From a virus: a stretch of 36,267 nucleotides of DNA. Positions 1 to 36,267 of the stretch are shown here, one piece after another. The notes beneath the pieces were generated by a model. That model was given only the letters and a program-made list of their open reading frames with translations, was not told where the DNA came from and made no database searches. Positions within the stretch are counted from its first letter, which is position 1; every line of letters begins with the position of its first letter. The position numbers and the translations under genes are program-made. The stretch spans positions 1-36,267 of IMG/VR virus record IMGVR_UViG_3300042898_000748; one strand, written 5' to 3'.

Positions 1-846
1 TTTGGCTTGTTTGGTTGGCTTAGCGCGCCTAAACAATTCTGAATCCCAGTAGAGAGTAGCTAGGTAAGCGTTAGGCTCGCGGGCAATAATCTTGTCCATT
101 AGCTTCGGATAGAACTCGCCCATCTTTACAAGAACGCGACTTGTATCAATGCTAAAGAACTGACTAATTCTCATGTCTCGTTTATTACCACCTGTTTGAT
201 ACAGGTATTGGTAGACGATCGGATAGTTTAGGTTCTTATCGCGGATGTAGCGCCAGACATCAGTATCTTTCCAGTCGTAGATTGGAAATAACTTAGCGTC
301 GTTCTTAGACATACTTACTGCGTAAAGTCTCTGAACAGATTCTGCTGTCCGAAGTCCGACCATAGAGATTCCGTCTTTACAGATTCTTTCTAGGAATGTC
401 TGGTAAGTTTCTTCTCTGGTCTTTAGCTTTGGATGTTCTGTAATAGCAAACTCTGGCATCTTGCGAACCCAGTTATCTTTTGCCTTACGGTCCCAGCAGA
501 TAAAGCTCTCGTCATTAGTTAGCTGATTGAAACAGTTAAAGTGCTTGACCTCAATGCACCACCAGCGAAACTGAACGCCGATAAGCATAAACTTACTGCG
601 CCATTCTTTTACGATACCTTCGACATCATCAAAGACAGCTTCTTCGTCAATAAAATCAACGACTAGAAGGCTCTTATCAACTTCTCCGCTAAGGCATAGT
701 TCATAAACCAAGTTAGCTAAAGTAATTGAGTCCTTACCGCCACTAAGCGATAGGTAGACAGGTAGCTTATTTGCGAAAATGTTTTTGATGCGCTCGTTAG
801 CTGCGCTGACTACATCTTGCTCAAGTTCCCTTTGAACTAAGACCAT
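1..846 (-). CDS. PAPS reductase-like PP-loop protein (IbrA-like), N-terminal 282 codons; continues across the contig junction
   Basis: The frame opens with ATG at 846, overlapping the stop of the upstream ParB-like gene by 10 bases, and stays open to base 1. It resumes without a break at base 36101 and ends at 35814, giving a protein of 377 residues. Visible motifs are the PP-loop SGGKDS at residues 35-40, GLRTAESVQR at 164-173 and LFPIYDW at 186-192. All are typical of the adenylate-alpha-hydrolase fold shared by CysH, DndC and IbrA. The Cys-containing C-terminal tail of true CysH enzymes was not seen; cysteines occur at 97, 105 and 117. A ParB-like gene lies on each side, as in IbrA/IbrB pairs. 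A role in DNA modification, regulation or sulfur chemistry is inference only. Confidence 0.85.
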   Translation of the reverse strand, partial: MVLVQRELEQDVVSAANERIKNIFANKLPVYLSLSGGKDSITLANLVYELCLSGEVDKSLLVVDFIDEEAVFDDVEGIVKEWRSKFMLIGVQFRWWCIEVKHFNCFNQLTNDESFICWDRKAKDNWVRKMPEFAITEHPKLKTREETYQTFLERICKDGISMVGLRTAESVQRLYAVSMSKNDAKLFPIYDWKDTDVWRYIRDKNLNYPIVYQYLYQTGGNKRDMRISQFFSIDTSRVLVKMGEFYPKLMDKIIAREPNAYLATLYWDSELFRRAKPTKQAK

Positions 847-1406
847 ACCTTCTGCCCACAACTTTCGCAAACAGAGTATTGGTCTTTGCTTTCATTATTT
901 GTATCGTTATTCATTGACTTGATTTCGGCGTTTATCTTTTCAGATTGTGCTTTGACCTGTTCCCTAAAGGATTCATTTACAGTGCCATAGCTTTTGCCGA
1001 TTTCTTCTAGTTGCTTTGGAGGGGCAACAAGGCTTTTTAGAATCTCATCGTCAAATCCTGGGATGTCTAATTCATCCCGCAGATCGTAGATAAGTTCTTC
1101 GATAACTGAGTAATCGTCTGAACCAAGTGCAGCGATTTTATTATCAGCTAGAGTCAAACGCTTTTTAGAAAACTCGGATAGTCCGACTAACTGAATAGCG
1201 TCTGCATCTGGTTTACCAAGCTCGCGCAGGGCGGTCAATAAGCCATTACCAGCTAGAACAACATTATCTTCATCAATAATGAGCGGTCTAATCTGCCCAA
1301 ACATTTCAATGGACCTTTTGAGTTCACTGATCTGTAGCTGTGAGTGCTTGCGCGGATTCTTCTCTAGTAGCGTTAGCTCATCCAGCGCGACCTTGATAAT
1401 TTCCAT
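837..1406 (-). CDS. ParB/Srx-fold protein 1
   Basis: This 189-residue protein starts with an N-terminal ParB-like fold: NPRKH at residues 17-21, a helix ending in FGQIRPLII near 36-44, AGNGLLTAL at 52-60 in place of the usual GHxR-type motif, and LADNK at 86-90. The C-terminal part is charged and ends in a CxxC pair (CESCGQK), perhaps half of a zinc site. Phage proteins of this type are often annotated as ParB-like nucleases and lie beside methyltransferase or PAPS-reductase-like genes. The ATG directly follows the stop of the symporter gene, and the 3' end overlaps the next gene, so the three are probably translationally coupled. The His and Arg of the canonical motif are replaced by Asn and Leu, so nuclease activity is uncertain. 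Confidence 0.85.
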   Translation of the reverse strand: MEIIKVALDELTLLEKNPRKHSQLQISELKRSIEMFGQIRPLIIDEDNVVLAGNGLLTALRELGKPDADAIQLVGLSEFSKKRLTLADNKIAALGSDDYSVIEELIYDLRDELDIPGFDDEILKSLVAPPKQLEEIGKSYGTVNESFREQVKAQSEKINAEIKSMNNDTNNESKDQYSVCESCGQKVWS

Positions 1407-2810
1407 TTACTTTACCAGTTCCTTCTTTTTAGAATTGTTACTGGTAATTATCTGCGTAATTATGTAAGCCACAATACCTGCGATTGTCGCGGTAAATAGT
1501 GAGCCATAGAGTTTTACATCAGCTAGGTTGTTTAGATTTCCGTAAAGGAATACTGGGAATCCAGCTCCCATAGCTGTTGTTAATCCAGCGACTACTGCGT
1601 TTGCTTTTAGCTGTAGCTTAGGGAACGCAAGAGTTAGAACTGTAATGCTAAATGTGGAAGCTCTTAGAGTTCCATAAATCATAAACATAATTAGAACTGA
1701 GTTGCCCGGAATGTTTGCGATTAAAAGCGCTACAACTGCACCAACAAGGATTACTAGATGTTGCTTTTTCAAATCCTTCGTGTAGTCCGTAGTCAAGGAA
1801 CCAAGCGCAACTAGCTGAGAATCAACAGTAGATAGAAGTCCACTTAGAAGCATTAGCAAGAACGGTATTACTACCCAAACTGGGAAGATCGCCTGAATTA
1901 CTTCTAGGTTTACATAGCCAGCGTTAGCAACTTCAACGCCACTACCTGCTGCGATAAATCCAAACACAGACATTGATAATGGAACTATGGCAAACACAAG
2001 AGCTGCAAGTGCGAATGATTTAGCAATCTTTGACTTATCAACGGCAAAGACTCTCTGCCAGAATGATTGGTCTCCAATTGGTCCAGCAAAAAGACCAATA
2101 GCGGAAATAATTCCGAAGGTTACTGCGACTCCAATACCACTATCGGTAAACAGCCCATCAATGTTGTTTATTCCTGTGAGTCCAGCGACTAGAGTATCCC
2201 AGCCCTGAGTAGCGATTGCTACTGGAACAAATAGAGCGAGCGCACCCAAAATAAAAATCATTTGAATAGCGTCGGTAAGTAGAGATGCCTTTATGCCACC
2301 GCGATAGGTGTAAGCCATTGTCATAGCCATTAGCAAGATGCTACCAATCCAAAGTGGGATGCCTGTAATGATGCTCAATACAGTTCCACCAGCCAGAATG
2401 TTTACAGACATTGAGAGAGTTGAAAGTGTACCCATCTCAAACTGATAAAACTTCTGAACTTTGGTGTTGTAGGTCTTACCCATAAAAGCGGAAAGAGTAA
2501 AGCCGTCTGGGTATTTTTCACGAAGCCTTTTGGCGAACGGAATAATAAACAGAAGGGTGAGGATGTTTGGGACTAAGAACCAAAATAGTCCAACCCAGCC
2601 ATTGTTGTAAGCCTGAGTCGAACCTACGAAAAGTGCTGGTGCCCAAATCCAAGTAGCTGCGATAGAGAGAGCTGTCTGAACGGTGCCCTGCTTGCGATCT
2701 GCAACTGTGTAGTATTCAGCGGTTTGTTTTCCCTTTACAAATTTGTAAGAGATTGCGGTCATCAATAGTCCGTAAAGAACTAGAGTCGTTACTCCTAGAA
2801 TCATTTCCAT
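1407..2810 (-). CDS. Sodium:solute symporter (SSS/SSF family) carried by the phage
   Basis: This is a 467-residue, very hydrophobic protein with about 12-13 membrane segments, close to the usual length of the family. Family signatures are present: YRGGIKASLLTDAIQ at residues 169-183, DQSFWQRVFA at 247-256 (resembling the DQxxWQR segment of DUR3-type urea transporters) and LLSTVDSQL at 325-333, the helix carrying the Ser/Thr residues of the sodium site. No frameshift or stop is visible, so it looks functional. It should import a small solute with sodium at the host membrane. The substrate cannot be read from sequence; urea is only a guess from the DQxxWQR segment. It lies 17 bases after TerS and directly before the ParB-like gene. 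Transporters of this family are rare cargo for phages. Confidence 0.9.
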   Translation of the reverse strand: MEMILGVTTLVLYGLLMTAISYKFVKGKQTAEYYTVADRKQGTVQTALSIAATWIWAPALFVGSTQAYNNGWVGLFWFLVPNILTLLFIIPFAKRLREKYPDGFTLSAFMGKTYNTKVQKFYQFEMGTLSTLSMSVNILAGGTVLSIITGIPLWIGSILLMAMTMAYTYRGGIKASLLTDAIQMIFILGALALFVPVAIATQGWDTLVAGLTGINNIDGLFTDSGIGVAVTFGIISAIGLFAGPIGDQSFWQRVFAVDKSKIAKSFALAALVFAIVPLSMSVFGFIAAGSGVEVANAGYVNLEVIQAIFPVWVVIPFLLMLLSGLLSTVDSQLVALGSLTTDYTKDLKKQHLVILVGAVVALLIANIPGNSVLIMFMIYGTLRASTFSITVLTLAFPKLQLKANAVVAGLTTAMGAGFPVFLYGNLNNLADVKLYGSLFTATIAGIVAYIITQIITSNNSKKKELVK

Positions 2811-2827
2811 AATGAATTGTATCTTTC

Positions 2828-3346
2828 TTAGTTGGCGATTTGTTTGCGTTCAACGCGTCGACGTTCTAGTTCATCTAAAACATCAACTTGCCTGACTTCA
2901 GCTAATCCTAGTCTAGCCCTATCTGTAGGACTAAAGCCAAGTGCCGATAACCAAGCCGTTATCTGCGACCGAAGATCTTTTAACTGTACCACTAACGGAT
3001 GACTAACTTGCTGTCCATTAGGTAATACATAAAATCTTCGGATTTCTCCAACCGCTAAAGCTCGACGGATTTGCTCTGCTTCATCCTGAGCTTGACACAA
3101 CATCACGATAATTGAAAGGTCACTTGTGGGTGACAGCCATTTCTTGCCTGCGGTCCAAACGTGATTCCAAAGTTCAATTCCGTCTTTACCCAGAACTGGT
3201 GCCTTTGGGATGCCATTAGCAGCTTCCAATCCTTCTCCGAAGATCGGCGCATCTGGGATAGGTCTATGACCCGGATTTCCAAGTGCTCGTTTTACTTCGG
3301 TAGGTTTTGGCGGTCTGCCATTCGGTCTTCCTGTTGGTGTTGCCAT
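2828..3346 (-). CDS. terS: Terminase small subunit, P27 family
   Basis: The protein is about 172 residues from the ATG at 3346, which is preceded by GAGAAG; in-frame ATGs at 3358 and 3370 would add 4 or 8 residues. It shows the P27-type pattern: an N-terminal GRPNGRPPKP segment, KRALGNPGHRPIPDAP, a central helical region with WLSP, and the conserved LGFSPTDRARLG near the C-terminus. It should bind the packaging site and recruit TerL. An HNH endonuclease gene lies upstream, the usual HNH-TerS-TerL order. TerL, however, is about 5 kb further on, after the symporter/ParB/PAPS-reductase cassette and a second TerS-like gene. Confidence 0.85.
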   Translation of the reverse strand: MATPTGRPNGRPPKPTEVKRALGNPGHRPIPDAPIFGEGLEAANGIPKAPVLGKDGIELWNHVWTAGKKWLSPTSDLSIIVMLCQAQDEAEQIRRALAVGEIRRFYVLPNGQQVSHPLVVQLKDLRSQITAWLSALGFSPTDRARLGLAEVRQVDVLDELERRRVERKQIAN

Positions 3347-3390
3347 GCGGCTTCTCATTTCTATAACCATGCGGTTTGTGTGCCATGCGG
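3343..3390 (-). repeat. Three copies of CCGCATGG at the 5' end of terS
   Basis: CCATGCGG (CCGCATGG on the coding strand) occurs at 3343-3350, 3367-3374 and 3383-3390, at distances of 24 and 16 bases. Two of the copies contain candidate start codons of terS. The same word occurs again in the leader of the scaffold gene at 31213-31220, with a seven-base copy at 31182-31188. It could be a protein-binding site or a reused start-region module; the sequence does not decide. Confidence 0.5.
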
Positions 3391-3591: not shown

Positions 3592-3945
3592 TTAGAATCT
3601 TCTCTTGATTCTATTGCCTTGAATAGCCCTAAGACCTTCTTGACTTGTCTTGTATCTGTGGCAGTAGGGTGCTACCGCATGATGTACCGCTTTTAGATTG
3701 CTTAGCGAGTTATCATCGTTCGGAATAACGTGGTCTACTCCATCCGCGTTAGGTTGCCCGCATAGATAACAGATTCCCTTGTCCCTTTTGAGAACTATTG
3801 TCCTTCTTGCTGACCAATCTTTAGGGTATCTACTCTTGCGGTTATGCCCTATAAAAGCTTGAGGGGTATGCTCTTTACAAGCCCCTTTTGATACCGCGTA
3901 TTCCTGACACCCCCTCTCCCGACAAGGTGTAGGTGCTAACGCCAC
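3592..3945 (-). CDS. HNH endonuclease, packaging-associated type
   Basis: The 117-residue protein has a GTG start at 3945 preceded by GGAG. N-terminal cysteines (C8, C13, C23, H26) may form a first metal site. The HNH core follows: CYLC at 59-62, DHVIP at 71-75, an Asn at 83 in SLSNLKAVHH, and CHRYK at 95-99. HNH proteins of this size next to terminase genes assist DNA cleavage during packaging in HK97-like phages. It is the first gene of the late operon, downstream of the candidate promoter at 4030-4059, and is followed by the non-coding region and TerS. Confidence 0.88.
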   Translation of the reverse strand: MALAPTPCRERGCQEYAVSKGACKEHTPQAFIGHNRKSRYPKDWSARRTIVLKRDKGICYLCGQPNADGVDHVIPNDDNSLSNLKAVHHAVAPYCHRYKTSQEGLRAIQGNRIKRRF

Positions 3946-32007: not shown

Positions 32008-33404
32008 TATTCTGCTTCGGTGTCAGTATTACGATTAGCTAATTCGGCTACTTGCGGATTCTGTGAAGCTGCTTGACTTGCTGCAGCTAGATTAGCAATT
32101 AGGTTATTGGCTTGCGCAACTTGCTTTTCAGCTCTTAGAACTTGCTTGTCTGATTCACTCAACCCAATTCGGTTGTAAGTTATTTCTGAATCAGGTAGGA
32201 ACACACCCGCAGCAATTAGCTTGACGGCTTCATCCGCAGCTGCAGCTCTAGTCGGTGTTGAAGCATCTCTCCAGATCGGTCTAATCTCACTAGCGCTTGC
32301 TGGAACTTGTCCGTCGCGAACTAACAAAGCAAGTTTAGCTACCTCAGTCCAAGTGCGACCAAACTGGCGCTGTCTGCGTTCTGCTCGCTTTATTAGTCTT
32401 GCTTCCATTTGGCGAATAGCATCTGCGCTCGCAGGATTATCAGTTTGGAATCCTAAGTAGCTAGATGGAATTGCCGTCTCAGCTGCGATAAGTTGTGCGT
32501 ATGCTTTGATCTGCTCAAAGTAAGGGCGGGTATCGTTAGCGCTAAATTGCCCTACTTGTGGCATCTGTCCATCTTGGTTAGCTGGAACACCAAGGATGCG
32601 ACCCTGATAGACACTCCAAGCATCTAGCGGTCTACCATCTGAATCAGTAAATAGGTCTTCATCCGCGCCAAGTATGTAGCGCTGTGGGGCGCTGTAGAAC
32701 TCTCTAGCTACTTCCGCCCCTAGCAAGGTTCGCATGGCGCTGTCGGTCAAGCTACGGACAGCTCTGGTTATCTCTGTGCGACCGTAAGGGTCTCCAGAGC
32801 GCGGGTTATTTGGAAGTTGAGCTACTAGCACTCGACCTAGATTGTGGATGTCTCTATCAATAACCACCCAAGCGCGGTTTGTGTAATCCAAGAAAATAGT
32901 TTGATCTGGTAGATACATTGTTCCGCTAATTGGAGAACCAGTTTCATTACGGTTTACCAGCAAAGCTGCGGATAATCTGCGGGTGCGCAAATCGTAAAGC
33001 GCGGTCATCTTTTTAGGAGACTCGATTGTAATGAGCGGGTCAGGCTCACCTTCCATACCCTTACCAACGGTGACAAAGCCAGTTCCAAAAACTAGCGCGT
33101 CTTTGTGTCCCATTGAGCTTTCTAGGTCAAGTTCGTTAGCCCTAAAAATTTCATTGACACCTAGATCGTCGGGGGCAATAAATCCCTCTAGGTCAAGGCG
33201 TTCCTCTAAGACATCAACCGTCGTGCCAGCCCAACCAACAACTGTTTCAACGGCTGTTAGCTGTGGTGGAATTGAGATTCGTAAATCTTTGAGTTTGTTG
33301 CGACCCTCATAGTATCGCTGTAAAACATAATTCTTTGGGTCATGCTTTTGTAGCTTGCGGTAAAGATACTCTAGTAGACCGAGTTCGTCTGCTGTTAGGC
33401 TCAT
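32007..33404 (-). CDS. Portal protein (SPP1 gp6-like)
   Basis: The 465-residue protein matches actinophage portal proteins: LLEYLYRKLQKHDPKNYVLQ and RYYEGRNKLKDLRISIPPQL at the N-terminus, VETVVGWAGTTVDVLEERLD, GHKDALVFGTGFVTVG, YGRTEITRAVRSLTDSAMRT, then AAETAIPSSYLGFQTDNPAS and the clip-stem AIRQMEARLIKRAERRQRQF. It forms the dodecameric ring through which DNA is packaged. It overlaps TerL by four bases. Confidence 0.92.
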   Translation of the reverse strand: MSLTADELGLLEYLYRKLQKHDPKNYVLQRYYEGRNKLKDLRISIPPQLTAVETVVGWAGTTVDVLEERLDLEGFIAPDDLGVNEIFRANELDLESSMGHKDALVFGTGFVTVGKGMEGEPDPLITIESPKKMTALYDLRTRRLSAALLVNRNETGSPISGTMYLPDQTIFLDYTNRAWVVIDRDIHNLGRVLVAQLPNNPRSGDPYGRTEITRAVRSLTDSAMRTLLGAEVAREFYSAPQRYILGADEDLFTDSDGRPLDAWSVYQGRILGVPANQDGQMPQVGQFSANDTRPYFEQIKAYAQLIAAETAIPSSYLGFQTDNPASADAIRQMEARLIKRAERRQRQFGRTWTEVAKLALLVRDGQVPASASEIRPIWRDASTPTRAAAADEAVKLIAAGVFLPDSEITYNRIGLSESDKQVLRAEKQVAQANNLIANLAAASQAASQNPQVAELANRNTDTEAE

Positions 33405-34909
33405 AGAACTATTGCCCTTCGTGGTGTTGTCTGGCGGTCTGATACTGCGTGTCTCGCACCATTAGCTAAAACGGCACAAGCTAGTAAGTCAATTTTACGC
33501 GGGCTTGATTTCTTTTCTTTACGAAACGAACCCGCTTCTGTTGCTACTGCGTTTAGAACGTGTCTTTCCAATCGTTTATCTCCATCGTGACCTAAGTCTT
33601 TAGCAACTATGTCTGCTATAAACTGTTGAGCTAGTGGTGCCATTCGATGGTTAGTCGGCGGTATTCTCTCTACGCGCCTTCTCCATTGTTTAGACCATTC
33701 TAAAACATCTGGTTCATAAAAGCTAGGGTCTGCCCAAAGCATTCTAACATTGTATTGGTCAAAAAGCTTCTGAATAGCAGCGTTTACATCTGCCCTATCT
33801 ACTACCCAATCTGGGTCTGTCGGGTCAGGTTCCCAAACAGCATGGACTTTTAGAGTCCCAGTCTTTACATCACAAAGAACAATACCTGTAGCATCTCCAC
33901 TTACAGATCCGTCGAATCCTGCGACTACTTCTGCACCAAGTGGTATCGTCTTTTCGCGCCTAGCTTCTCCCCAGAAATGAGCGCTAATAAAATCTTCTCC
34001 AGCAAGCCTTACCCATTGATTGAGTCGGTATCTCTGGAATCCCGCAAATCCCGCTGAACCTGCAGCTGCGATAGATGCCTCAAAATCACCGAGGTCAAGC
34101 AATCCTTCGGCAAGGTTAGGGTTAGCTAACTTCCACACTTCGGGATCTGTTGGGTCTGCTTCTTGTCCAGCTTCCCACCACCAAAAACCATACTGCGGGT
34201 CAAGCTCTCCGTTTGATTCAACTACTCGCTTACCATGCTCATACAAACGACCTAGCAAAGTATCTGTTCGCCCGCCCGCTGTGGTAATGCCTACCACTAA
34301 TGACTCAGGTCGGTCGGCGCTTCCTTGCGTAAGTGCTTCCCAGAGTTCGTCACCCCTATTGTTGCTAGGGCTAGACGGCCAAGCGTGTAGCTCATCCGCA
34401 ACCACGAGCGATGGCGCTAATCCGTGAGCGCGCATAGCATCAGCGGATAGTGCGCGATAAATAGAACCTTTGTATTCCAAGACATCTCGGTAAACTTTGA
34501 TTATCTTTGACAACGCGGGGTTATCCATTACCTGATTACGCGCTTCTCCAAACACGATTCGTGCCTGTGAGCGGTCAGATGCAGCGGAATAAACTTGCGC
34601 ACCTTCGGGTCCATAGAGAAGATGTTCCAAGGCAATCGCGGTGCCCAGCAAACTTTTTCCGTTCTTGCGTGGAAGTCCGATAACAGCTCTGCGGTAACGA
34701 AGCAATCCTGTTTCTGGATTCTCTTCAAGTAATCTATCTATTAGCCATCTCTGCCAAGCGGTAAGAACTAACGCTTCGCCCGCGCGAAATCCGCGACTAG
34801 CTTTTAGTAATAATTGAGAGAAGTCTGCAACATCTTCGCCTCTAGTTTGATCTGAATAACTTGGCACATAGTAAGCAGGTTTCCAGTTTTTATCTGGTTC
34901 GGGCAACAT
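33401..34909 (-). CDS. terL: Terminase large subunit
   Basis: This 502-residue protein has an N-terminal ATPase with Walker A GLPRKNGKS (residues 78-86), Walker B LVVADEL (168-174, the Glu being catalytic) and the coupling motif GITTAGG near 207-213. A C-terminal RNase H-like nuclease begins GFDGSVSGDATGIVL with Asp333, and MLWADPSFYE supplies a further acidic residue. It cuts and pumps DNA into the capsid. It lies next to the portal but is separated from the P27 TerS by the cassette. Confidence 0.95.
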   Translation of the reverse strand: MLPEPDKNWKPAYYVPSYSDQTRGEDVADFSQLLLKASRGFRAGEALVLTAWQRWLIDRLLEENPETGLLRYRRAVIGLPRKNGKSLLGTAIALEHLLYGPEGAQVYSAASDRSQARIVFGEARNQVMDNPALSKIIKVYRDVLEYKGSIYRALSADAMRAHGLAPSLVVADELHAWPSSPSNNRGDELWEALTQGSADRPESLVVGITTAGGRTDTLLGRLYEHGKRVVESNGELDPQYGFWWWEAGQEADPTDPEVWKLANPNLAEGLLDLGDFEASIAAAGSAGFAGFQRYRLNQWVRLAGEDFISAHFWGEARREKTIPLGAEVVAGFDGSVSGDATGIVLCDVKTGTLKVHAVWEPDPTDPDWVVDRADVNAAIQKLFDQYNVRMLWADPSFYEPDVLEWSKQWRRRVERIPPTNHRMAPLAQQFIADIVAKDLGHDGDKRLERHVLNAVATEAGSFRKEKKSSPRKIDLLACAVLANGARHAVSDRQTTPRRAIVL

Positions 34910-35311: not shown

Positions 35312-35836
35312 CTAGTAATTGCTAATGAACTTGGCTTTACTGTATCCAGTCGAACCTTCGGTCATAAGATTTAGGAAGTCATCCCTAGAGAAGTCAGATA
35401 ATCTAAAGATTTCTTCTTTCTTCATACCAGTTTGCTTGACAATCTCATCCATAGTTTTGCCATTCTCAATAAGAGTCTTAACAATAACCTTCATTGGTTC
35501 TAGCAAGTGAGTTCCGCGGGCGCGGTTATGAGTAATGGTTCCGTAGATGTTAGCATCTCCGTCTGCGTGGTCCACGATAACTACAGGGACTTTACCCTCA
35601 AGCTTTGACAGAAGTGGCTCTCTACCCGATACTGTCCAGCGGTGAAAGCCGTCAATAATTGTGTAGTCGGGGCGAACAACGATTGGTAGTGTCCATCCGT
35701 TAGTCAAAATTGATTGTGTTAGCAGATCAAGATTGTCTTCTGATACCTTGTTCGGGTTGTAATCGTTAGCTTTTAGTAGGTTTCTATCTACAAAATCTAA
35801 TCTTGTAAGTGGCTTAAATAGCTCTGCGGTCGACAT
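35312..35836 (-). CDS. ParB/Srx-fold protein 2 (IbrB-like)
   Basis: ATG 35836 with AAGGA nine bases upstream is preferred; ATG 35860 would add eight residues. The 174-residue protein has ANDYNPNK at residues 23-30, VVRPDYTIIDGFHRW at 53-67 (the active-type GxHR motif intact) and ITHNRARGTH at 101-110. A helical part with an HTH-like TMDEIVKQTGMKKEEIFRL follows. The ITHNRARGTH element is characteristic of IbrB-like proteins that occur beside IbrA-like PAPS-reductase relatives. It overlaps that gene's 3' end by 23 bases. It is unlike ParB protein 1 in the key motif. Confidence 0.85.
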   Translation of the reverse strand: MSTAELFKPLTRLDFVDRNLLKANDYNPNKVSEDNLDLLTQSILTNGWTLPIVVRPDYTIIDGFHRWTVSGREPLLSKLEGKVPVVIVDHADGDANIYGTITHNRARGTHLLEPMKVIVKTLIENGKTMDEIVKQTGMKKEEIFRLSDFSRDDFLNLMTEGSTGYSKAKFISNY

Positions 35837-36267
35837 CAGCCATGTTCCTTTCCCAGTCATTCTTGCGTAAGCTCAAAGTAATAGCTCTTAGAGTTCGTTC
35901 TTTAGGGTCTCCAGCAACTAATACTTCATAAAGTCTTTTGTAATCTTTTGGCAAGATGTCATTTTGGAACTTTATAAGAAGCTGTCTAACTCGAACGGTA
36001 TTCTTGATTCTTACTTTACCATCAAGATTCTCAGGATTAGCAATAAACTCAAGAACTTTAGTTTTCCAGTCAATCGTGTCATCAACCAATTCCTCACCAG
36101 CTTTGGCTTGTTTGGTTGGCTTTGCTCTCCTAAATAATTCAGAATCCCAGTAGAGAGTAGCTAGGTAAGCGTTAGGCTCGCGGGCAATAATCTTGTCCAT
36201 TAGCTTCGGATAGAACTCGCCCATCTTTACAAGAACGCGACTTGTATCAATGCTAAAGAACTGACTA
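35814..36267 (-). CDS. PAPS reductase-like protein, C-terminal part (same gene as 1-846)
   Basis: This is the last 151 codons of the gene that starts at 846. The first 55 codons here repeat the end of the copy at 1-166, and the unique part after residue 282 (AGEELVDDTIDWKTKVLEFI to DVDRRAI) adds 95 residues. An ATG at 36224 is an internal methionine (MGEFYPKL is residues 242-249 of the full protein), not the start. The C-terminal extension is helical with KNTVRVRQLLIKFQND, as in IbrA-like proteins, which are longer than CysH. Confidence 0.85.
   Translation of the reverse strand, partial: SQFFSIDTSRVLVKMGEFYPKLMDKIIAREPNAYLATLYWDSELFRRAKPTKQAKAGEELVDDTIDWKTKVLEFIANPENLDGKVRIKNTVRVRQLLIKFQNDILPKDYKRLYEVLVAGDPKERTLRAITLSLRKNDWERNMADVDRRAI
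36102..36267. repeat. Right copy of the 166-base terminal repeat (left copy at 1-166)
   Basis: Bases 36102-36267 match 1-166 except at left-copy positions 22, 25, 27, 34 and 40. The last 126 bases are identical. The repeat lies inside one gene, and its frame is continuous across the join, so it is the overlap of a circular or permuted genome, not a packaged terminal repeat. Confidence 0.9.

Follow-up and report, generated by a model that had tools for sequence, protein, structure and literature searches.

The DNA analyzed here, termed the window, is an IMG/VR virus record (IMGVR_UViG_3300042898_000748) of 36,267 nt. It displays a symporter gene that lies between packaging genes and a set of enzyme genes. 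The features are as follows:

1..870, minus strand: PAPS2, a PAPS-reductase-like (IbrA-like) PP-loop protein, 5′ part, truncated at the contig end (PF01507, E = 7e-11; phrog_2302, E = 4.5e-80)
837..1406, minus strand: ParBC, a ParB-like protein with a C-terminal zinc-ribbon-like tail, CESCGQKVWS (phrog_620, E = 1e-38; phrog_498, DNA methyltransferase, E = 1.8e-29)
1407..2810, minus strand: sodium:solute symporter (SSS), gene 1 of the cassette (PF00474; phrog_20720; predicted fold)
2828..3370, minus strand: terminase small subunit, 17 bases upstream of the symporter
3592..3945, minus strand: HNH endonuclease, upstream of the terminase small subunit
33401..34909, minus strand: terminase large subunit
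35312..35860, minus strand: ParB2, a second ParB-like protein (IbrB-like)
35814..36266, minus strand: remainder of the PAPS-reductase-like gene, at the opposite contig end
36102..36267, plus strand: terminal repeat of window positions 1–166 (166 bases, 161/166 identical)

The contig ends overlap within the PAPS-reductase-like gene, and the record therefore represents a nearly closed genome of ~36.1 kb. The five mismatches of the end repeat cluster, and the junction may mix two close variants. Read on the minus strand round the contig end, the order is HNH endonuclease, terminase small subunit, SSS, ParBC, PAPS2, ParB2, a short open reading frame, terminase large subunit and portal. The best terminase matches listed are from phages of Actinobacteria (Pontimonas, Streptomyces; 36%–38% identity), which makes an actinobacterial host plausible for this phage. 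The initial annotation had placed the symporter in the late region, and the gene does sit among packaging genes; judged by gene position alone, the symporter would act late in infection.

The symporter open reading frame is intact on the minus strand (2810..1407), has an ATG start and encodes 467 amino acids; the plus strand across the same positions has many stops. The initial annotation gave this open reading frame correctly, but left out its strand and missed the conserved multi-gene cassette described below. The Pfam SSF model PF00474 scores 75.2 bits (gathering cut-off 22.8). The family phrog_20720 covers residues 6–453 (E = 2e-124); it is a PHROGs family of unknown function, and its link to an operon is added by the present analysis. 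Scores against the NCBIfam equivalogs PutP (58.1 of 515.5 bits) and PanF (46.5 of 328.05 bits) are below the cut-offs.

The AlphaFold (AF2) model of the symporter (pLDDT 94.2, pTM 0.91) consists of helices only, and about 13 spans are counted on it, in agreement with the 12–13 that had been proposed. Foldseek gives whole-length PDB matches to CHT1, SiaT, DUR3 and SGLT. Structure comparison gives CHT1 a Z of 45.3 (450 aligned, 2.7 A), SiaT 37.9 and DUR3 36.2. An SSS/LeuT-type fold over the whole length is thus predicted with confidence.

The proposed sodium-site motif LLSTVDSQL is borne out: LLSTVDSQ occupies residues 325–332, and its TM8 Ser-Thr pair is nearly invariant (S327 in 49 and T328 in 48 of 50 aligned relatives). 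The pair aligns with that of DUR3 and CHT and presumably belongs to the Na2 sodium site. The dN/dS ratio is 0.118 for the window and L003 and 0.097 for L002 and L003, the two pairs in which it could be computed; dS was saturated in two further pairs. The gene is under purifying selection (dN/dS ~0.1). The intact open reading frame, the predicted SSS fold, the conserved TM8 pair and this ratio show together that the gene is kept working, and the reading of a whole, apparently functional SSS transporter in a phage is upheld. The product is a putative cation-coupled importer of one solute.

The PF00474 match, the whole-length fold and the TM8 Ser-Thr pair are common to the phage symporter and known SSS proteins. 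The phage symporters differ from known members in forming their own group, in which WIWAP and GPxGDQxxWQR are nearly invariant, and in lying inside a phage operon. The segment DQSFWQR is at residues 247–253, and D247, Q248, Q252 and R253 are invariant across the 50 aligned relatives. It had been likened to DUR3 urea transporters and taken as a hint of a nitrogen-containing substrate. This comparison fails, as the solved DUR3 chains read FVDNGYW at the aligned place, with neither DQ nor QR, and QR is shared by CHT (QVYFQR). By sequence, DUR3 is the best-scoring solved family for the symporter; by structure, CHT1 and SiaT are equal or higher.

In a FastTree phylogeny of 54 rows the window groups with L003, L004 and L005. 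Cellular relatives (L140, L142, L145, L149, L153, L154, L156, L158) are intermixed with cassette symporters; row L376, from a host, has a very long branch and was probably translated in the wrong reading frame.

Relatives of the symporter are found in at least 162 viral-contig stretches and at least 106 genome-contig stretches, many of them in Clostridia. A tblastn search of deposited phage records gave a match in one of 50,697. The supposed rarity of phage transporters therefore applies to deposited records; among uncultivated phages and prophages it does not hold. In L002–L005 the symporters are 64%–72% identical to that of the window and have the same neighbors in the same order. In-house profiles detect the order SSS – [PP-loop1] – ParBC – PAPS2 – ParB2, with tightly overlapping genes, in the majority of a collected set of 162 sequences; the first position is that of an importer, and PP-loop1 is a PP-loop ATPase gene absent from the window. 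MT836198, a human gut phage fragment whose symporter has 45% identity, shows the full order with PP-loop1. Such cassettes are carried by clostridial phages and prophages, by Treponema contigs and by the group to which the window belongs. Relatives are also found in prophages of the cultured strains Anaerotruncus colihominis DSM 17241 (L104) and Acetatifactor muris DSM 23669 (L113).

Loci were retained from the symporter query (the best 80 of 162 viral stretches and the best 80 of 106 genome contigs) and from enzyme queries (the best 80 of 278, the best 80 of 184 and the best 80 of at least 158). Duplicates were removed by comparing only part of a single protein. Among 188 distinct cassettes having ParBC and PAPS2, with the window itself and L001 (minus strand) left out of the count, the importer is SSS in 141, a mini-SSS-like protein in 28 and an ABC permease with a binding protein (SBP) in 9; 8 cut by contig ends were set aside, and 2 have none. 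The importer is upstream in 174 of the 188, within 150 nt in 171, with a median gap of –14 nt. ParB2 is near PAPS2 in 185 (2 are cut, 1 is without it). The terminase large subunit is at most 4 kb downstream in 133; 24 are cut, 1 has it elsewhere, and in 30 loci with at least 4 kb downstream it was not found with the seeds used. Other polytopic open reading frames (at least 250 aa and at least five spans, counted by simple hydropathy) are scarce near these cassettes, only 2 in 2,568 kb. In L167 and L168 the SSS gene is downstream of the cassette. Where the SSS gene stands alone, the contig either is cut off next to it or is a MAG contig of cellular look.

Because symporter queries would be circular (116 of the distinct cassettes stem from loci retrieved with the symporter, which contain SSS by construction), the enzymes were used as queries. 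They yield 127 distinct ParBC and PAPS2 cassettes: SSS 78, mini 28, ABC 9, cut 10 and none 2, with 28 of 214 loci left out as they have no ParBC and PAPS2 pair. Thus an importer is present in 115 of 117 evaluable cassettes when the symporter is not the query. As the enzyme queries derive from cassettes that carry a symporter, they favor near relatives, and since many cassettes belong to one lineage the counts are not independent events. The symporter is part of a fixed phage operon and is no stray nutrient gene.

The importer slot is occupied by different families. The mini type (~330 aa, e.g. Taranis gp35) is, according to hhalign, related to SSS but shorter (96%, E = 1e-9), and no solved relative was found with the mini-SSS profile. 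The Faecalibacterium phages Taranis and Pioen carry cassettes of this type. The ABC type consists of a BPD_transp_1 permease (PF00528) and an NMT1/THI5 binding protein in nine cassettes (L226, L239, L256, L320, L334, L343, L349, L354 and L358). As in NitT/TauT ABC importers (SsuA/TauA/ThiY type), a permease and an NMT1 binding protein are paired, here in the SSS slot. Unlike those importers, the phage sets show no ABC ATPase gene in any of the nine fetched stretches; they may borrow a host ATPase. The L226 pair is nearest to SaoP/TauC/SsuC-type (permease) and SsuA-type models, below cut-off, and the binding proteins predict no substrate finer than the SsuA/TauA/ThiY group. The two enzyme-query cassettes with no importer are L216 and phage PJN03 (L232). 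In L216 a cupin-domain gene (positions 1704–2402) is in the usual importer slot. The replacement of one importer family by another in the same place suggests that import itself is what the cassette needs, whichever family provides it.

The importer is also coupled to one of the enzymes. Of 152 distinct PP-loop1 loci, 146 offer 7 kb or more of context; in these, a transporter is present in 123 of 126 with ParBC vs 2 of 20 without it. Thus the importer and the zinc-ribbon ParB-like protein go together. A glutamine amidotransferase of class II is present in 15 of 18 loci that have neither ParBC nor transporter vs 5 of 123 that have both; the importer therefore largely alternates with a glutamine-dependent ammonia source. 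A sister cassette (L235, L255, L288 and others) consists of glutamine amidotransferase, PP-loop1, IbrA-like and IbrB-like genes, with no importer and no ParBC.

An AsnB-like amidotransferase gene adjoins the symporter in 4 of 11 cellular contexts, identified by Pfam in three (E = 1e-69 to 1e-73) and by sequence only in L145. At these places (L142 7030–9819, L144 1665–4418, L145 7167–9933, L154 7195–9938) it is accompanied by a ~330-aa protein with a zinc-ribbon-like start and a weak Toprim match. In L143 (2178–3961) and L149 (7790–9590) the symporter is beside a pair of proteins of ~360 and 225 aa; three of the four, those scanned, gave no Pfam match. A nitrogen-containing or amide-forming solute fits both the alternation and the cellular neighbors. 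The nitrogen-containing substrate first proposed from the DUR3 motif thus loses those grounds and is still possible because the importer alternates with a glutamine amidotransferase; the cassette solute is perhaps of this kind.

The IbrA/IbrB-type pair, i.e. adjacent PAPS-reductase-like and ParB-like genes, is present in the window and in the cassettes, and the Taranis record names IbrA/IbrB. The pair is annotated as co-activators of prophage gene expression; the original study was reportedly made in E. coli. The cassette IbrA-like protein has ~26%–30% identity to most listed IbrA-type proteins. In nine of nine control loci with ordinary, more distant IbrAB pairs, the stretch read has no polytopic open reading frame, thus such enzymes can work without an importer. 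PP-loop1 is missing in 38 of 141 SSS cassettes as well as in the window and is not essential.

BrxP and DndC models match PAPS2, and type II methyltransferase models match ParBC. Dnd and BREX type 4 have, like the cassette, a PAPS-reductase-fold enzyme, and both Dpd and Dnd systems employ ParB-like proteins (PMC12839542, on BREX). Unlike Dnd, the cassette protein is far below the DndC cut-off (TIGR03183, 16.4 and 23.5 bits of 290.4), and the cassette shows no recognized signature of DNA modification.

Five observations form the basis for an interpretation: the operon is fixed, nearly every ParBC cassette has an importer, the importer family can be replaced, the importer is coupled to ParBC, and it alternates with a glutamine amidotransferase. 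The importer may be the supply component of a phage operon, in which the solute is passed to the PP-loop and ParB-like enzymes, probably for phage DNA modification around packaging; this is given a probability of roughly 0.5. As a first step the symporter, from its fold and conserved site, would import one small solute driven by a cation gradient. The solute or a nucleotide would then be activated with ATP by PP-loop ATPases, one or two in number and with the PAPS-reductase fold, as their families suggest. The ParB/Srx-like proteins, one of them zinc-ribbon-tailed, might bind nucleotide or DNA and deliver the product onto DNA, or might regulate. Modification of phage DNA around packaging would be the most likely end use, because relatives of the enzymes work in DNA modification (the BrxP/DndC matches of PAPS2, the type II methyltransferase models and phrog_498 for ParBC, the ParB-like proteins of Dpd and Dnd) and the operon is usually near the terminase.

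A more specific pathway can be put forward tentatively. A small molecule taken up from outside the infected cell would be activated by the PP-loop ATPases and attached to the phage's own DNA through the zinc-ribbon ParB-like protein before packaging. The importer would replace the glutamine amidotransferase as source of nitrogen or of a building block, and its family could change while import remains.

Several results speak against the DNA-modification reading: the DndC cut-off is missed by far, PP-loop1 is dispensable, distant IbrAB pairs do without an importer, the ABC sets show no ATPase gene, and in 30 loci no terminase large subunit was found downstream. The annotation of IbrA/IbrB as co-activators points to regulation rather than DNA modification. 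The imported solute might then control the IbrA/IbrB-like proteins and in this way make phage or host genes responsive to the environment. A full transporter with one or two ATP-using enzymes exceeds what a sensor needs, and the closeness to terminase is left unexplained; such a signal system is unlikely. That the symporter is an ordinary auxiliary metabolic gene, feeding the host a scarce nutrient (urea, an amino acid or a vitamin) independently of its neighbors, is in keeping with the nutrient import of SSS proteins, with DUR3 as best solved match by sequence and with the PanF and PutP models, which match below cut-off. It is quite unlikely, as the importer is bound to one enzyme cassette across Clostridia, Treponema contigs and the window's group, tracks ParBC, and has its slot taken by an unrelated family.

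In a third alternative a sulfonate or related compound enters through the importer, and its sulfur is assimilated by the PAPS-reductase-like proteins. The ABC-type binding protein of L226 does match SsuA and TauA models (below cut-off), and phage PAPS reductases are listed under host metabolism in PMC11318856. Sulfur assimilation is weakened by the CysH-type models, which are far below cut-off (PRK02090: 17.1 and 21.5 bits for PAPS2, 27 for PP-loop1, of 154). The mediocre PAPS2 model (pLDDT 75) is matched best in Foldseek by tRNA thiolases and LarE, at low TM-scores. The two ParB-like proteins and the amidotransferase link would have no role, and this alternative is distinctly improbable. An assembly chimera, or a host gene carried into the contig, has next to no probability: a 49-base exact junction search found no second copy of the window phage, but the gene order is shared by L002–L005 and more than 100 further loci, a phage family (phrog_20720) exists for the symporter, and the same neighbors in four other, independent contigs refute the chimeric assembly that the initial annotation had considered.

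A description of the operon was not found in the open-access literature searched, as far as its text was available, which does not show that it is unpublished. IbrA/B are listed in glacial phages in PMC4490671, and the main text of PMC5883640 (Taranis) has no match for transporter or Ibr. The symporter is of a known family; what is new is an operon whose importer can be exchanged.

Transporters in phages are commonly taken to help with nutrients. In this case a phage transporter is tied to a defined enzyme set, both in prophages of gut Clostridia and in the quite different phage of the window. The cassette interpretation would question the listing of such PAPS-reductase genes as sulfur metabolism. 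The cultured prophages (L104, L113) and the phages Taranis and Pioen make the cassette directly testable. If the product is modified DNA, the phage would be taking up from outside the precursor with which it modifies its DNA. The finding suggests that these phages take in a small molecule to serve chemistry of their own instead of merely feeding the host.
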